Positions 28,705 to 35,372 of a stretch of DNA of 64,000 bases are shown in pieces; within the stretch, counting starts at the first letter, position 1; the number at the start of each line of letters is the position of its first letter. A program made the translations under genes and the position numbers. Location of the stretch: positions 1-64,000 of the forward strand of contig NZ_RZUF01000012.1 of the NCBI RefSeq assembly GCF_004005375.1. The letters are read 5' to 3'. This DNA is from Rheinheimera sediminis. Lineage in GTDB: Bacteria; Pseudomonadota; Gammaproteobacteria; Enterobacterales; Alteromonadaceae. The notes beneath the pieces were generated by a model, which was not told the origin of the DNA, searched no databases, and saw nothing but the letters and a program-made list of their open reading frames with translations.

Positions 28705-31353
28705 ATGTTCACAAATAACAAATTATCAAAGGCAGTGCGCTTAGCTGTTGCTTTTGGTGCAGCTTCAGTTGCTTTTACCTCTGTAGCTCAGGAAGCCGCG
28801 GAAGAAGAAGCTACGGACGTTGAGCGTATCGAAGTAACTGGTTCACGTATCAAACGTACTGACCTTGAAGGTTCTTTACCTATCACTACTATAGACCGTG
28901 CTGCTATTGATATGTCTGGTCAATTGTCTGTGACTGACTTATTACGTAACACTACCTTCAACTCATTCGGTTCTGCCCGTACCACCTCAGGCAACTCTGC
29001 TCAGGGTACGTCTCAGATCAACTTACGTGGTTTAGGTGCCAACCGTACCTTGATTCTGATTGATGGTAAACGTGTTCCTAAGTCTCCTTTAACAGGTAGC
29101 TCTCAGGACTTAAACCAGTTGCCACTGGCTGCTGTTGAACGTATCGAAGTTCTGCAAGACGGCGCATCTGCTGTATACGGTTCAGACGCTATTGGTGGTG
29201 TTGTGAACATCATCACTCGTAAAGACTACGATGGTGCTGAAATTAAACTGGGCTCTTCACGTGTAAGCTTGCCTTCAGATGGCGGTGATCGTGAGGAAGG
29301 TAGTTTCCTGATCGGTTCTGCCAATGATAAAACCAACCTGATGGCTGGTTTTTCCTGGAACAACCGTGACATTATTTTTGAACGTGCTTTCCCATGGAAT
29401 GCGCCAAACCGTGGTATCTCTCCATACGGTAACAACTGGGCTCCGTTAACTTCAGCTGGCCGTGCTCCAGGTTCTACACAGGCTCGTGCATTAACTAAAG
29501 CTTGTGATTTTGAATTGTTCTACACTACTCAAAGCCCTTGGGTTCCTGCAAACCAACTGTGTAGCTATGACTTCCTGAAAACCAATGCCAACGATTCATC
29601 GACGGGCAACCAGTCTCTATTTGTTCGTGGTACTCACGAGTTTACAGACAACTGGAAAGTCTATGGTAATGCTAACGTTGCTAAAACCAAGTCATTCGGT
29701 CGTTATGCTGCTTCTCTGAACGATCCGGGCAGTATCATTTCTGCAACAAGCCCAAACAACCCAACGAACCCAAATAGCCCACTGTACGATGCTGCTATTG
29801 GTGGCGCTGCCCGTTCTGTTGCTGTGTTCCACCGTTTTGCGGCATTGGGAACTCGTGATACATCTGTTGATAACTATGCTAACGATGCAATGGTTGGTTT
29901 AGAAGGTAACGTCAACGATATCGATATTGACGTAGGTGTACGCAAAGCCAAAACGAAAGCTTACAACATAGGTACTGGTTACCTGTTACGTTCTGCGGCA
30001 AATATCGCCATGGAAAGTGGTGCTTACATGCTAAACGACCCGTTCGGTGAGCGTTTCACTACTGCTGAAGACCAGGCTGCTTACCGTGCCTTGTTAAACT
30101 CAATGAACGTGACTATTTCTCGCGTCAGCCAGTTTGACCAGGAAGAAGCATTTGCTTCTGCTGCTTTTGACGTGATGGAATTAGACGCAGGTGCTATTCA
30201 GGCGGTAGTAGGTGCCGAGTACCGTAAAGAGCAATACAACGACAAGTATGACTCACTGTCTGAAGCTGGTGTTGTAGGTGGTTCTGCTGGTTCTTCTGCT
30301 GGTGGTGGTCGTAATGTGAAAGCGGCGTACGCTGAGGCATTAGTGCCAGTAACAGAACAGTTTGAACTGAACTTTGCTGCCCGTTACGAGAAATACTCTG
30401 ACTACGGCAACGATTTGGCACCTAAAGTATCTGCCCGCTACGAGCCATTAGAAGGTTTAGTATTACGTGCTTCAGTAGGTAAAGGTTTTAACGCACCAAG
30501 CTTGGACATCCTGACACAACAACCGTCGTCTCGTAACGATACGGTACAGGATTTTGTATTGTGTGATTTCAACAATACTCCGGTCACGTCTTGTCCTTCT
30601 GGCCAGATCCGTTCAACGGATATTGCTAACCCTGCTCTGAAATCAGAACAATCAGATCAGCGTTCTTTTGGTATCGCATATCAGCCGACAGATTGGTTAA
30701 ACTTTGCTGTTGACTACTACAATATCGAAATTGAAGACTCAATCCGTTATATCGGCTTACAAACACTGATCAACCGTGATCGTGCTGGCGACCCAATCCC
30801 TGCTGGTTTAGGTTATGTTCGTGACCCGGTGAACAATGCTATCATCGAAGCCACAACTGGTTCTGCTAACGACGGTACGCAAGAAACTTCAGGTATAGAT
30901 TTAAACATAGCTACTAACTTTGACTTTGGTGATTTCGGTAAACTGAAATCAACATTCCAAGCCAGCCACGTGTTAGATTTCAGTCTGGACAGCGGCCGTA
31001 ACCTTGTGAAAGACCCAGGTCGTCCACAACAGCGTATGGCATTAAGCCACGCTTGGAGCATCAGTGATTTTGACGTGTCCTTCACTACTAACCTGATCGG
31101 TGATCAGTTTAACAACGTGACTACGGCAAATAATGTTACTACTCGCAGTGGCCATATTGCTTCATGGACTACGCATGACCTGCAAGTGGTTTACCACACT
31201 GGCTGGAATGCAGATATCACAGTGGGTGCTCAGAACTTGTTTGAAAAGTTCCCACAGATTGGTGTATCCAGTGCTGCTGGTCGTAACTTAGACTATACAC
31301 TGTATGATGCTTACGGCCGTATCAGCTACGTTCGTTACACTCAACGTTTCTGA
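28705..31353 (+). CDS. TonB-dependent outer-membrane receptor
   Basis: An 882-residue receptor with a signal peptide (cleavage near SVAQE). An acidic linker and a TonB-box-like ERIEVTGSRI at about residues 41-50 are followed by the plug domain (LPITTIDRAAID, LRGLGANRTLILIDGKRV, ASAVYGSDAIGGVVNIITRK). A C-terminal 22-strand barrel ends in RISYVRYTQRF, with terminal Phe. Codon choice is unusually uniform (many GGT and CGT), suggesting strong expression. The substrate is not evident; TonB receptors of this large size take up peptides, glycans or siderophores, and there is no Fur box visible at its promoter. Confidence 0.95.
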   Translation: MFTNNKLSKAVRLAVAFGAASVAFTSVAQEAAEEEATDVERIEVTGSRIKRTDLEGSLPITTIDRAAIDMSGQLSVTDLLRNTTFNSFGSARTTSGNSAQGTSQINLRGLGANRTLILIDGKRVPKSPLTGSSQDLNQLPLAAVERIEVLQDGASAVYGSDAIGGVVNIITRKDYDGAEIKLGSSRVSLPSDGGDREEGSFLIGSANDKTNLMAGFSWNNRDIIFERAFPWNAPNRGISPYGNNWAPLTSAGRAPGSTQARALTKACDFELFYTTQSPWVPANQLCSYDFLKTNANDSSTGNQSLFVRGTHEFTDNWKVYGNANVAKTKSFGRYAASLNDPGSIISATSPNNPTNPNSPLYDAAIGGAARSVAVFHRFAALGTRDTSVDNYANDAMVGLEGNVNDIDIDVGVRKAKTKAYNIGTGYLLRSAANIAMESGAYMLNDPFGERFTTAEDQAAYRALLNSMNVTISRVSQFDQEEAFASAAFDVMELDAGAIQAVVGAEYRKEQYNDKYDSLSEAGVVGGSAGSSAGGGRNVKAAYAEALVPVTEQFELNFAARYEKYSDYGNDLAPKVSARYEPLEGLVLRASVGKGFNAPSLDILTQQPSSRNDTVQDFVLCDFNNTPVTSCPSGQIRSTDIANPALKSEQSDQRSFGIAYQPTDWLNFAVDYYNIEIEDSIRYIGLQTLINRDRAGDPIPAGLGYVRDPVNNAIIEATTGSANDGTQETSGIDLNIATNFDFGDFGKLKSTFQASHVLDFSLDSGRNLVKDPGRPQQRMALSHAWSISDFDVSFTTNLIGDQFNNVTTANNVTTRSGHIASWTTHDLQVVYHTGWNADITVGAQNLFEKFPQIGVSSAAGRNLDYTLYDAYGRISYVRYTQRF

Positions 31354-31488: not shown

Positions 31489-32445
31489 ATGGATCACTGG
31501 AATAATCTTTGGGGTACTACAGAGGCGTTAAGTAGCTTTGCTGAAGGTGAAATGGCATTTGGTTATAAAGGCGCCGTAGCAGATTATTGGTCGTCAGTGT
31601 TCGAAGCTCAGACCCCGCAGGCTGTGGTTGCGGATTTATGTTGTGGTAATGGAGCTTTGCTTCTCGCTGCAGCTAGTTATTCGTGCTCAACAGACAAAGA
31701 TTTTATGTTGTATGGTATTGATGCTGCTCAGATTAATTTCTCTGCGGTAAAGCAGCAATTAGCAAAGCTGACTGCACCAGTACGAGCAGAGTTTCTTGGC
31801 GATACATCAATAGAGAAGTTACCTTTGGCCTCTCAATCTGTAGATTTAGCTATTTCTCAATTTGGTTTTGAGTATACAGATCTGGACATGTCTTTAACTG
31901 AGCTACACAGAGTATTGAAGTCTGGTACATCGCTGCATTTTATTGCGCACCATCCAGAGTCTTTTATTTCCACAGACTGCAGCTTAGGCGTCGCTATCCT
32001 GAGTGCATTAATGGATCAGTATTTGTATTTTGACTTAGCGATCTCCTTGATTGAGTTGACGCTTCAGCTCAAACAAAAGTCAATAGCGCCTGCTCAGGTT
32101 CCGGCCTTTGCTCAGGTGAATCAGGCCTTGTTGGCTATTATGCAGAAGTTTAATCAGAATTATCAGTCCGCTTATGAACAAGAATGGTATTCAGAGTTAT
32201 TCCGTCAGACTGCTCAAGCTGTTTTAGCATCAGACTTCGCCGCGCTGGAGCGAGTCAAAGCGTTAAAAGTTAATACAGGTTTTCATTTGCAACGTTTGGT
32301 GCAGCAGCAAGCAGTAGCGTTAACGCCCGAGCAATTGGATCAGAAGTTAGCAGCGCAGCCTGGACTTTTTGCTCCAGCGGTTTATACCGAGATCAAGAGC
32401 AATGAAGGGTTGATCGGATTGGCAGTGAAGCTGACAAAGATTTAA
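31489..32445 (+). CDS. Class I SAM-dependent methyltransferase-like protein
   Basis: A 318-residue protein from ATG 31489 (DHWNNLWGTTEAL); codons upstream lie inside the preceding terminator. A Rossmann SAM site is visible as VADLCCGNGALLLAAA (motif I), followed by an acidic LYGIDAAQ, then SVDLAISQFGFEYTD and a late ALTEL-like RVLKSGTSLHFIAHH (post-motif strand). The C-terminal half is helical and unrecognised. It lies upstream of the hvf operon on the same strand with a 170-base gap, so co-function is possible but unproven. The substrate is unknown. Confidence 0.78.
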   Translation: MDHWNNLWGTTEALSSFAEGEMAFGYKGAVADYWSSVFEAQTPQAVVADLCCGNGALLLAAASYSCSTDKDFMLYGIDAAQINFSAVKQQLAKLTAPVRAEFLGDTSIEKLPLASQSVDLAISQFGFEYTDLDMSLTELHRVLKSGTSLHFIAHHPESFISTDCSLGVAILSALMDQYLYFDLAISLIELTLQLKQKSIAPAQVPAFAQVNQALLAIMQKFNQNYQSAYEQEWYSELFRQTAQAVLASDFAALERVKALKVNTGFHLQRLVQQQAVALTPEQLDQKLAAQPGLFAPAVYTEIKSNEGLIGLAVKLTKI

Positions 32446-32500: not shown

Positions 32501-32517
32501 CATAGAACTGGTCTATG
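32501..32517. promoter_or_regulatory. Inverted repeat upstream of hvfA, candidate operator
   Basis: A 6-bp perfect inverted repeat CATAGA / TCTATG with a five-base ACTGG spacer, 99 bases ahead of the hvfA start. It could be a regulator site or an upstream promoter element. I could not match it to the region upstream of the ECF sigma operon. Confidence 0.35.
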
Positions 32518-32615
32518 GTATCCGGTGTGCCGAATAATTTATGCTGTTGCGAAATTTTTTTTCTGTAGTACAGGTCTATTAAATGCAACTTAATGCAACT
32601 ACGAGGAACATCGAT

Positions 32616-32912
32616 ATGAAAACCAACAAAACGACAGCTGTTGCCATCAGTGCTTTAGTACTGGGCTCTTTATCCACGTTAAGCTTGAGCGCCAACGCGA
32701 ATCCGTTTTCAGCTGAGCAGTTAAATGCTGGTTACCAGCTGGCTTCAGCTGAAGCTTCTTGTGGCGCAGACAAAGCTAAAGAAGCTAAATGCGGCGAAGA
32801 CAAAGCCAAAGATAAAGAAGCCAAATGTGGTGGCGATAAAAAAGAAGGCAAAGACAAAGAAAAAGCCAAAGAAGCCAAGTGTGGTGAAGGCAAGTGCGGT
32901 GGCGCTGTATAA
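32616..32912 (+). CDS. hvfA: HvfA-like cysteine-rich RiPP metallophore precursor
   Basis: A 98-residue precursor from ATG 32616 (GAGGAA site seven bases before; an earlier in-frame ATG lacks one). The N-terminus is a signal peptide (ending near SANANP). The second half is made of Lys/Glu-rich repeats around five Cys: one SCG, three EAKCG and one EGKCG, ending CGGAV. Cys in E-x-KCG motifs is the known substrate of MNIO enzymes, which form oxazolone-thioamide groups that bind copper. hvfB and hvfC follow directly. Five Cys, only one in the exact EGKCG context, is a variation on the Haemophilus peptide. Modification is inferred from the neighbours. Confidence 0.82.
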   Translation: MKTNKTTAVAISALVLGSLSTLSLSANANPFSAEQLNAGYQLASAEASCGADKAKEAKCGEDKAKDKEAKCGGDKKEGKDKEKAKEAKCGEGKCGGAV

Positions 32913-32923
32913 CACCGAAGAAT

Positions 32924-32947
32924 GTCAGCCTGCGATCGCAGGCTGAC
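32924..32947 (+). terminator. Perfect 24-base palindrome between hvfA and hvfB, likely attenuator
   Basis: GTCAGCCTGCGA and its exact complement form a 12-bp hairpin with no T tract, 12 bases after the hvfA stop and just before the CAGGAG site of hvfB. It would protect the hvfA message end or partly stop transcription, giving more precursor than enzyme. Confidence 0.65.
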
Positions 32948-32964
32948 CGCTTTCAGGAGATCTT

Positions 32965-33813
32965 ATGTCTGATGTTCGTTTTGGTTTAAAAGCTGCAGAA
33001 GTCGGTTTGGGCTTACGTCGTGAAATGCTCAACTCTGTGTTGCAACAACCTCAAGCCGACATCGACTTTTTTGAAGTTGCGCCGGAAAACTGGTTGCCTT
33101 ATGGTGGTGCCTACCAAAAAAAATTCCGTCAGTTAACTGAACGCTATCACTTTATTTGCCATGGTTTGTCGTTGTCTTTAGGCAGTCCTGATGCTTTGGA
33201 TCTGGATTTTGTCCGCCAAATCAAAGCCTTTTTAAAAGAGCATCAGATCAAACTTTACAGCGAACATTTAAGTTATTGTTCTGCCGCAGGACATTTGTAT
33301 GATTTGCTGCCTATTCCTTTTACCGAAGAAGCTGCTGTTTATGTCGCAGATCGTATTCGTCTGGTACAAGATATTCTTGAACAGCAGTTGGTCATCGAAA
33401 ATGTCTCTTATTATGCAGCGCCTGGACAAGAGCTGACTGAACTTGAGTTTACCAACGCAGTGCTGGAGTTGGCCGACTGCAAGCTGCTATTAGATGTGAA
33501 TAACATCTACGTCAATTCAGTTAATCATAGCTATGATGCGCTGGCTTTTTTAAAAGGCCTGCCAACACAGCGTATTGCTTATGGTCATGTCGCTGGACAT
33601 TATCGCCAGCATGACAGCTTGCTGATTGATACTCATGGCGCTGATGTGTCTGATCCGGTCTGGGCCTTATTGTCCGACGCTTATTTGCATCACGGCCTGT
33701 TTCCGACTTTGCTGGAAAGGGATTTTAATATTCCTGATATGCAACAACTGCAACTGGAGCTGGCGCATATTCGTAGCTTGCAACAAGTTAAGCAAAATAA
33801 GGTAAGGGCCTGA
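32965..33813 (+). CDS. hvfB: HvfB-like MNIO (DUF692) RiPP maturase
   Basis: A 282-residue TIM-barrel multinuclear non-haem iron oxidase. Conserved DUF692 metal and active-site stretches are present: GLGLRREM, EVAPENW, ICHGLSLSLGS, YSEHLSY, IENVSYYAAPG, LLLDVNNIYVNS, YGHVAGHYR, DTHGADV and LLERDFNIP. The His/Glu/Asp/Asn ligands in these motifs are all kept. It should oxidise the Cys of the HvfA repeats. It has a CAGGAG site and is one base from hvfC, so the two are coupled. Confidence 0.92.
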   Translation: MSDVRFGLKAAEVGLGLRREMLNSVLQQPQADIDFFEVAPENWLPYGGAYQKKFRQLTERYHFICHGLSLSLGSPDALDLDFVRQIKAFLKEHQIKLYSEHLSYCSAAGHLYDLLPIPFTEEAAVYVADRIRLVQDILEQQLVIENVSYYAAPGQELTELEFTNAVLELADCKLLLDVNNIYVNSVNHSYDALAFLKGLPTQRIAYGHVAGHYRQHDSLLIDTHGADVSDPVWALLSDAYLHHGLFPTLLERDFNIPDMQQLQLELAHIRSLQQVKQNKVRA

Positions 33814-33814
33814 A

Positions 33815-34552
33815 ATGAAATTCCAACAGGTTCAACGGGACTTTGTTGCTTATTTGCGCTCGCCAGAGCAACACGAAAAACCTCTGGATATAGAGCAGGA
33901 ACGTCTGGATGTGTATCGGGAATTGTTGTTTAACAATGTGTCAGGTTTTATCAGCAGTGCTTTTCCTGTGCTGAAATCCTTGTACTCAGAGCAGACATGG
34001 CAGCAGCGTTTACAGCCTTTTTTTGCCGGCTATCGCTGCGAAAATCCATTCTTTTTATCCATAGCCCAGAGTTTTTTAGAGTTTTTACAGCACCAGTATC
34101 AACTACAGCCCGATGACCCTGTGTTTATGCTGGAATTGGCGCATTATGAATGGCTGGAATTAGAGCTGGCAACACGCAAAGCAGAAGCCGGACTTCCCAT
34201 ACGCGATCTGAAACAGCAGGCACTGCAGTTGTCCGATTTAGCATCAGTGCAGGCCTATCAATACCCAGTGCATAAAATTTGTCTGGAGTTTCAGCCAACA
34301 GAAACCGAAGCTAGTTTTTTACTTATTCATCGTAACTCTGACGACGAAGTAAAATTTATCGCGTTAAACCAGCTGACCACTTTATTGCTGCAAGTATTAG
34401 CGCAGCAGCCAGGTTTAACCTTGGCTGAACTGGTTAGCCAATTATCACCTTACGTGCCACAGTTGGATCCCTGTCAATTGTTGCCCGGTGCTGAGCAGAT
34501 ACTGGCAGATTTTGCCGAGAAAGGCATAGTACAAGCTTTTCAAGCGGGCTAA
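33815..34552 (+). CDS. hvfC: HvfC-like RiPP maturation partner (DUF2063)
   Basis: A 245-residue protein with the DUF2063 helical N-terminal domain (RLDVYRELLFNNVSGFISSAFPVLKSLY, FFLSIAQSFLEFLQ) and a C-terminal beta-rich part related to the RiPP recognition partner of DUF692 enzymes. It is older-annotated as a DNA-binding domain, but in RiPP clusters it binds the precursor leader and forms the active complex with the MNIO oxidase. The start is one base after the hvfB stop. Confidence 0.9.
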   Translation: MKFQQVQRDFVAYLRSPEQHEKPLDIEQERLDVYRELLFNNVSGFISSAFPVLKSLYSEQTWQQRLQPFFAGYRCENPFFLSIAQSFLEFLQHQYQLQPDDPVFMLELAHYEWLELELATRKAEAGLPIRDLKQQALQLSDLASVQAYQYPVHKICLEFQPTETEASFLLIHRNSDDEVKFIALNQLTTLLLQVLAQQPGLTLAELVSQLSPYVPQLDPCQLLPGAEQILADFAEKGIVQAFQAG

Positions 34553-34596
34553 AATTCATTACCATGTCCAACCTTTTTAGTGAATGAGCTCACATC

Positions 34597-34716
34597 ATGG
34601 CAGACGAGAATTTTAAAGAATCTTTTGGTATCGGCCAGTTAGTGCTGTTAGTCACAGCCTTTGTGGTTTTATTGTGTCTGGCACCCATCATCAGTTGGCT
34701 GCGGATCATCGCTTAA
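34597..34716 (+). CDS. 39-residue single-span membrane peptide at the hvf operon end
   Basis: An open frame of 39 residues: an acidic N-terminus ([12 protein letters not shown]), one membrane helix ([20 protein letters not shown]) with a Cys in the helix, and a short basic tail (WLRIIA). It lies 44 bases after hvfC and 14 bases before a strong terminator, so it is probably the last gene of the hvf operon. I recognise no family. A weak TGAG element nine bases upstream is the only ribosome binding site. The compact placement and charge-hydrophobic layout support it. Confidence 0.6.
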
Positions 34717-34730
34717 ATTGTTGCGAGCGA

Positions 34731-34758
34731 AAAAAACCGCCCTCAAGGCGGTTTTTTT
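34731..34758 (+). terminator. Terminator of the hvf operon
   Basis: Stem ACCGCC / GGCGGT with a CTCAA loop, flanked by an A run and seven Ts. Confidence 0.92.
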
Positions 34759-34820
34759 ATCTGTGGTATATCCAGCATTTTGTCGATATGCCGTTGTTGA
34801 ATTTTATAATCAGGATGGTG

Positions 34821-35372
34821 ATGATGAATCCACAATCTCTTTCCGCTTTATTAAGTCAGGTGATTAAAGCTGTGCCTGACTATCCAAAGCCAGGTATTTT
34901 ATTTCGTGACGTGACCAGTTTAATGCTGGATGCTGGTGCTTTCGCACAGGTGATTGATGCGTTTAAGCAGCAGTATCAGGGCAAAGGCTTTACCAAGATT
35001 GTCGGTACTGAATCCCGTGGTTTTATTTTTGGTGCCCCTTTGGCTTATGCCATGGGTTTACCTTTTGTACCAGTGCGTAAGCCAGGTAAATTACCGCGCG
35101 AACGTATTGCTCAGTCTTATCAACTGGAATACGGCGAAGACACGCTGGAAATTCATAAAGACGCAATAGTTGCCGGAGATAAGGTGCTGTTAGTGGATGA
35201 CTTATTGGCTACAGGTGGTACTATTGCTGCAACAACCAGTTTAGTCGAGCGCTTAGGTGGCAAAGCGACGGACGCCGCTTTTGTGGTGAATCTGCCGGAT
35301 TTGGGTGGACAAGCGCGTTTAGAGAAACTGGGGCTTAACCTCTACAGTCTGGTTGAATTTGCAGGCGATTAA
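34821..35372 (+). CDS. apt: Adenine phosphoribosyltransferase
   Basis: A 183-residue purine-salvage enzyme making AMP from adenine and PRPP. The start is at ATG 34821 or the next codon, behind an AGGA site; the open frame further upstream overlaps the terminator and the small membrane gene. [39 protein letters not shown] and the PRPP loop [13 protein letters not shown] are present. It opens the conserved apt-dnaX-ybaB-recR-htpG-adk block. Confidence 0.96.

Follow-up and report, generated by a model that had tools for sequence, protein, structure and literature searches.

The central question raised by this locus of Rheinheimera sediminis is whether a 39-residue open reading frame that directly follows an hvfABC operon is a fourth gene of that operon or a gene in its own right. 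A preliminary description of the DNA had seen here a tight operon encoding a signal-peptide precursor with five Cys residues, an MNIO oxidase and its DUF2063 partner, followed by a single-span peptide lying before the terminator. The reading frames and family models confirm this composition of the operon, and the position of the small gene (hereafter sml) between hvfC and the hairpin is likewise confirmed (34597-34716 and 34730-34758, respectively). All four genes, hvfA, hvfB, hvfC and sml, lie on the forward strand of the window (the whole stretch of 64,000 nucleotides that was analysed), at positions agreeing with that description. The relevant features are as follows.

31489-32445, forward strand: gene for a SAM methyltransferase, upstream of hvfA.
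32551-32578, forward strand: candidate ECF-sigma-like promoter, GAAAT-N18-GTCTA, 5' of hvfA and conserved in relatives.
32616-32912, forward strand: hvfA, a Sec-signal RiPP precursor of 98 amino acids with five Cys in E(A/G)xCG and the leader motif LNAGY.
32965-33813, forward strand: hvfB, an MNIO (DUF692) oxidase of 282 amino acids (PF05114, E 1.8e-103; NF003818; 3bww).
33815-34552, forward strand: hvfC, the DUF2063/RRE partner (PME1) of 245 amino acids (PF09836, PF22106; NF050145; 3dee).
34536-34565, forward strand: candidate promoter-like element of sml, overlapping the hvfC stop codon.
34597-34716, forward strand: sml, a single-span membrane microprotein of 39 amino acids (family conservation, hydropathy, dN/dS).
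34730-34758, no strand assigned: hairpin with a T run, a likely intrinsic terminator, 3' of sml.
34821-35372, forward strand: apt, adenine phosphoribosyltransferase (NF002632, 283.9 bits, cut-off 243).

The hvfA frame is part of a longer open reading frame (32583-32912), within which the ATG of the signal peptide is at 32616, and the PME1 (DUF2063) partner adjoins the MNIO enzyme, with hvfC starting 1 nt past the hvfB stop codon. The gene following apt is presumably dnaX, as named from its sequence, and a gene for a TonB-dependent receptor (28705-31353) is situated upstream of the methyltransferase gene and hvfA. Since sml starts 44 nt past hvfC and no terminator is seen in the gap between the two in the window, transcription probably runs on from hvfABC into sml to some extent. 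The hairpin downstream of sml (-16.9 kcal/mol for 34722-34766, z -3.2) is not among the candidates listed by a simple terminator scan of the window. The genome is near that of Rheinheimera sp. A13L, the sml proteins of the two being identical, and, at the search thresholds applied, has a single match each for HvfB, HvfC and the KCG precursor.

The identity of the three hvf genes can be stated with confidence. HvfB exceeds the curated cut-off of NF003818 (431.6 bits vs 360) and has 3bww as its nearest solved structure (E 6.8e-68); its Arg-Arg 18-19 and Asp-Phe 253-254 would, by motif in the unaligned sequences, correspond to Arg15/16 and Asp249/Phe250 of FonB. HvfC exceeds the cut-off of NF050145 (270.1 bits vs 142) and matches the structure 3dee (E 3e-12). 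HvfA combines a Sec signal, read from the sequence, with repeats of a Lys-Cys 5-mer; it scores above the cut-off of the KCG domain model NF050137 (30.8 bits vs 19.5) and below that of the HvfA equivalog NF050188 (29.7 vs 95 bits), so we place it in the KCG domain family and not in the HvfA equivalog. The operon is an ordinary one of the oxazolin/captophorin type, belonging to a described family and carrying a short repeat allele of the precursor.

Comparison with known systems, as presented in the available sections of the respective papers, points in the same direction. The hvfABC/oxazolin operon of Haemophilus influenzae likewise comprises a Sec-signal KCG-repeat precursor, the MNIO HvfB and the RRE partner HvfC; it further includes the DoxX-like HvfX, which was not found here, and its HvfA has three AEGKCGEGKCG motifs (PMC13419390), whereas the five Cys of the present protein stand mostly in EAKCG and the present operon is followed by an unrelated microprotein gene. 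The fontiphorin (fon) cluster of Fontimonas thermophila is a similarly minimal set of a precursor, an MNIO and PME1, with both EAKCG and EGKCG motifs; FonA is longer and bears seven 5-thiooxazoles (PMC13097082), whereas the product considered here is a predicted one. The Buf_EGKCG/oxazolin family shares the kind of precursor, the MNIO and the DUF2063 partner (Antoine et al. 2025, PMC12452194). The available sections of the latter paper name DoxX and no small membrane gene (the phrase 'small membrane' occurs 0 times in the paper), whereas the window has sml.

The Cys contexts of HvfA are, in order, EASCG, EAKCG, EAKCG, EAKCG and EGKCG, i.e. four of the five Cys are in KCG and EAKCG is the commonest context. 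The preliminary description was right in counting a single Cys in the exact EGKCG context, and had taken this as a sign that the product may differ from the known copper-binding peptide. We regard such a different product as extremely unlikely: the motif count and the missed NF050188 cut-off would fit it, as would the fact that EASCG has no tested Ser counterpart in the available text on fontiphorin, but the fontiphorin fragment FonA67-80 (SGEAKCGEGKCGEK) was modified at both of its Lys-Cys sites, EAKCG included, and Ala, Arg or Thr instead of Lys at position 3 of the motif was tolerated in double variants (PMC13097082, available sections). The number of Cys also varies, being 6-7 in HvfA of nine close relatives, which have the same EASCG start (compared with the one labelled L160, the allele in the window is short by one EGKCG unit), and five to eight in Microbulbifer precursors, according to the available part of PMC12538549. 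Given the modified EAKCG of fontiphorin and the tolerance at position 3, the four KCG sites of HvfA are likely substrates by analogy, and modification of the EASCG site is plausible.

In peptides of other species, the published chemistry of the family indicates that HvfB needs HvfC, that the signal peptide acts in a leader-like manner, that EGKCG-like Cys residues are converted to 5-thiooxazoles, and that the product binds copper (available sections of PMC13097082, PMC12452194 and PMC13419390). By analogy, HvfC would hold the leader of the HvfA precursor and HvfB with its iron cluster would convert the Cys residues of the E(A/G)KCG repeats to 5-thiooxazoles. Sec would then export the peptide, with cleavage predicted near the ANA/NPF junction, and the resulting captophorin, an oxazolin-type peptide, would bind copper in the periplasm or beyond.

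The region upstream of hvfA contains the sequences GAAATTT and GGTCTA, which are invariant in all ten aligned hvfA upstream sequences (that of the window and those of the relatives L160-L168), with flanks that barely align. We take this pair to be an element of the ECF-sigma promoter type, and the region thus looks like a candidate ECF-sigma promoter. The ECF-like pattern occurs in 22 of 66 precursors linked to hvfBC (0.23 expected from mononucleotide shuffles), in nine of 32 other precursors without adjacent hvfBC, and in none of 140 sml upstream regions; some genomes enter the sets of 66 and 140 twice, as an unnamed and a named copy. The upstream regions of hvfA and sml, then, carry different elements. 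Sigma-factor genes have been reported from Buf1 clusters. An inverted repeat of the 6-5-6 type at 32501-32517 was also considered as an operator of hvfA and rejected; it has one match in the window and is absent from nine aligned relatives.

Turning to sml itself, a profile built from ten members matches 180 of 196 Alteromonadaceae genomes, representing 49 of 52 genera, at E<=0.1, and 169 of them at E<=1e-3 (the remaining 11 matches having E values between 1e-3 and 0.1); the single sequence alone had given matches in 14 of 98 family genomes (E<=0.1). A second profile, run on 247 genomes sampled from the order, matches 93, including 19 from the window's own family; some of the 93 matches are near the 0.01 threshold and possibly due to chance. 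The members that were read have 37-45 amino acids, most of them showing FK[DE] close to the start and W close to the end, and the hydropathy maximum of sml (2.86 in a 19-residue window) marks a hydrophobic span. The median dN/dS is 0.098 (based on 125 pairs of usable divergence out of 741), which, together with the family-wide profile matches, makes sml more than a chance open reading frame: it is a genuine gene under purifying selection. Pfam and NCBIfam have no family for it, and no description of the family was found in the open literature searched. Names of known families were rejected for sml, since they came up as single-member matches only (Pfam, NCBIfam and PHROGs, best E 0.0048), and Pfam detects no DoxX domain in the 39 residues of sml or in 30 aligned members. 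The membrane-embedded Cys of sml proved to be no key feature of the family: at that column Cys is present in 17 of 78 members, and any Cys at all occurs in 65 of 140.

Does the presence of sml depend on the operon? HvfC scores over the cut-off in 93 of the 196 family genomes, and sml accompanies it in 85 of them, while occurring in 95 of the 103 genomes without hvfC (E<=0.1; Fisher p 1.0); with the threshold set to E<=1e-3 the respective counts are 74 of 93 and 95 of 103, i.e. sml is rather rarer in the company of hvfC. Adjacency was judged for 150 listed sml places (180 genomes being matched) and 150 listed apt places. Among the former, hvfC is directly upstream in 55, elsewhere in the genome in four, and in 91 the genome has no hvfC over the cut-off; the suggestion that the small frame would be kept next to hvfC in relatives was thus borne out, with the qualification that it is kept equally well where hvfC is missing. 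On a tree of dnaX sequences comprising 72 sml loci, the state of having hvfBC beside sml changes at least 12 times, eight of the changes being forced by well-supported branches; this is a quick tree that scores only hvfBC beside sml, and some loci scored as having none possess hvf elsewhere. The 72 tree loci, as well as the 42 named loci discussed below, were chosen by having sml and therefore cannot show loss of sml. The linkage of hvfC and sml is nevertheless old, hvfBC being directly upstream of sml in eight of 20 loci fetched from other families of the order, and several genomes lacking hvfBC keep an EGKCG precursor directly before sml.

The most obvious alternative to an autonomous gene is that sml is indeed a fourth hvf gene, one that docks HvfBC at the membrane, aids export or anchors the mature peptide in place of the DoxX-like HvfX. 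Its position 44 nt after hvfC and ahead of a shared terminator speaks for this, as does the recurrent linkage (55 of 150 listed family places, eight of 20 loci in other families and 29 of the 42 named loci). Against it stands the equal frequency of sml in genomes without hvfC. Genus g37 (seven genomes) presents the converse situation, the matches of hvfC and apt being separated by 80-129 nt, a distance too short for sml, though in two of the seven the sml profile matches weakly (E 0.012 and 0.035) outside the listed places. Furthermore, the available sections of PMC13097082 report that FonABC, HvfABC and NgoABC, expressed heterologously in the absence of sml, yield a modified peptide.

The named loci are particularly informative about this alternative. 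In the 13 of them without hvfBC upstream of sml (Alishewanella jeotgali, Rheinheimera sp. D18, eight Arsukibacterium and three Alkalimonas), a whole-genome search found HvfC over the cut-off in nine (the eight Arsukibacterium and A. jeotgali) and not in the other four, one of the latter, an Alkalimonas, giving a weak 63-bit match. These four genomes thus have sml and no hvfC over the cut-off. In all nine genomes with hvfC away from the apt site there is a single sml match, located on a different contig from hvfC, so hvfABC seems to have relocated, or to persist as an additional copy, with sml not accompanying it. The idea that all 13 loci represent loss of hvf was accordingly dropped: relocation or a kept copy applies to nine of 13, and absence to four only. 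As hvfC persists elsewhere in these nine genomes, which retain both elements as the fourth-gene alternative would have it, a link between hvf and sml in trans may exist there. The genomes with relocated hvf, from Arsukibacterium and Alishewanella jeotgali, are those labelled L184, L186, L189-L191 and L193-L196. In addition, hvfB and hvfC were found side by side at another place in three searched family genomes (G126, G146 and G185).

The vacated sites themselves preserve traces of the operon. At the site of Arsukibacterium perlucidum (L190), a 34-residue hvfB-like piece (E 8e-8) and a C-terminal piece of hvfC (E 0.002) lie approximately 230 to 60 nt upstream of sml, with a full-length HvfC match elsewhere in the genome; these decayed fragments are a footprint of a former hvfABC at the site. 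Moreover, all 13 hvf-less loci keep a stretch, starting 71-78 nt before the sml start codon, that resembles the hvfC 3' end of an hvf-bearing relative (R. pacifica serving as the reference for ten loci, an Alkalimonas for three). None of 500 mononucleotide shuffles was as good in 12 of the loci, and one of 500 in the remaining one. In the window the kept element corresponds to 34536-34565, with one match and 0 expected. Based on its conservation and position, the simplest reading is that this promoter-like stretch is the promoter of sml, retained when hvfABC left.

Other neighbours of sml come and go as well. In two other families of the order, sml precedes the same carA-like frame in all six loci fetched (the one checked has CarA domains). 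The notion of sml as an extra operon member is thus not supported, the gene being as common without hvfC, remaining in place when hvf is gone, and preceding carA elsewhere, and we consider the fourth-gene explanation quite unlikely. Instead, with a probability of roughly 0.85, we view hvfABC and sml as two independent things standing side by side, sml being an autonomous gene with its own promoter-like element. In this lineage sml would be the upstream neighbour of apt-dnaX, with hvfABC filling the site before sml unless moved or lost.

This arrangement could also be taken to mean that sml is functionally tied to apt-dnaX, for instance as a leader or regulator of apt, and thus not autonomous at all. 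Indeed, 119 of the listed sml places come from genomes with a listed apt, and in 113 of these apt is directly downstream. The six exceptions, however, all belong to genus g39, in which sml is away from apt in all six judged cases, and the occurrence of sml before the carA-like frame in two other families weighs against such a tie, too. In the four listed g39 loci the gene upstream of sml is of the TldD type in two (the TldD domain being checked for one) and AnmK-like in one. Even where apt follows, a receiver-domain gene often intervenes between it and sml (PF00072 in the one checked), and in the window a terminator separates the two. We therefore judge the dependence of sml on apt-dnaX to be very unlikely; the neighbours of sml change and the gene stays. 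The intervening gene encodes a stand-alone response-regulator receiver and is seen in many genera, e.g. in L085 (4649-5029).

The comparison of genomes also brought to light precursors that lack their enzymes. KCG precursors are present in 146 of the 196 family genomes and HvfB over the cut-off in 93; 55 genomes have a precursor and no hvfC over the cut-off, and 29 have a precursor and no match to the HvfB model at E<=1e-30, 25 of the 29 genomes being at least 90% complete. At E<=0.01 the MNIO family PF05114 has no match in 28 of the 29 genomes; the remaining one gives two partial matches. In total, EGKCG precursors with no MNIO enzyme detected in the genome occur in 28 of the 146 genomes that carry a precursor; one of the 29 yielded no frame for the precursor, and the 28 include the genome with the partial MNIO matches. 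This set represents 11 genera (L202-L223, L226, L227, L078, L084, L094 and L109), and its precursors have signal-like starts and 8-19 Cys, except one cut by a contig end. Precursors without MNIO are known already, Table 3 of Antoine et al. 2025 giving 67 of 2583 genomes in which a Buf_EGKCG precursor is unaccompanied by an MNIO (PMC12452194, available sections), but they are more frequent in this sample of one family.

These orphan precursors differ from those encoded beside hvfBC in a leader motif. The pattern [LM]xxGY, located past the signal peptide and ahead of the first Cys, is present in all 66 judged precursors beside hvfBC, and in none of 28 orphan precursors or of five precursors without adjacent hvfBC, one of these five coming from a genome already in the orphan set; the count skipped three hvfBC-linked precursors with a short or masked leader and, among 29 orphan rows, the one cut by the contig end. 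Of the precursors without adjacent hvfBC, 12 had a place on the dnaX tree, and all of these belong to one clade; the absence of the motif thus counts there as one evolutionary event, and the idea that the GY motif was lost independently many times was discarded.

As regards what sml may do, CydX and AcrZ are small single-pass membrane proteins, and sml is like them in its length and single hydrophobic span. Our reading is that sml would be an accessory or regulator of some general membrane complex, and our confidence in any particular partner is low. A broader reading, to which we would give even odds, is that sml represents an undescribed order-wide family of single-pass microproteins (with FK[DE], a P-rich span and W) that has its own promoter embedded in the end of the preceding gene, is kept through repeated changes of neighbours and would serve some core membrane complex as a general subunit or regulator; as a side reading of these data, HvfBC would need [LM]xxGY as part of the HvfA leader, and the MNIO-less clade, having lost this motif, would keep EGKCG proteins as unmodified metal binders.

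The tight spacing and the shared terminator make it tempting to place sml in the copper-peptide pathway, and it is the comparison across genomes that separates the two. The analysis thereby points to a conserved microprotein family outside Pfam and NCBIfam. For the copper peptides themselves, [LM]xxGY is a candidate recognition motif of hvf-type leaders, for which the precursors lacking both the motif and the enzymes constitute a natural contrast set.
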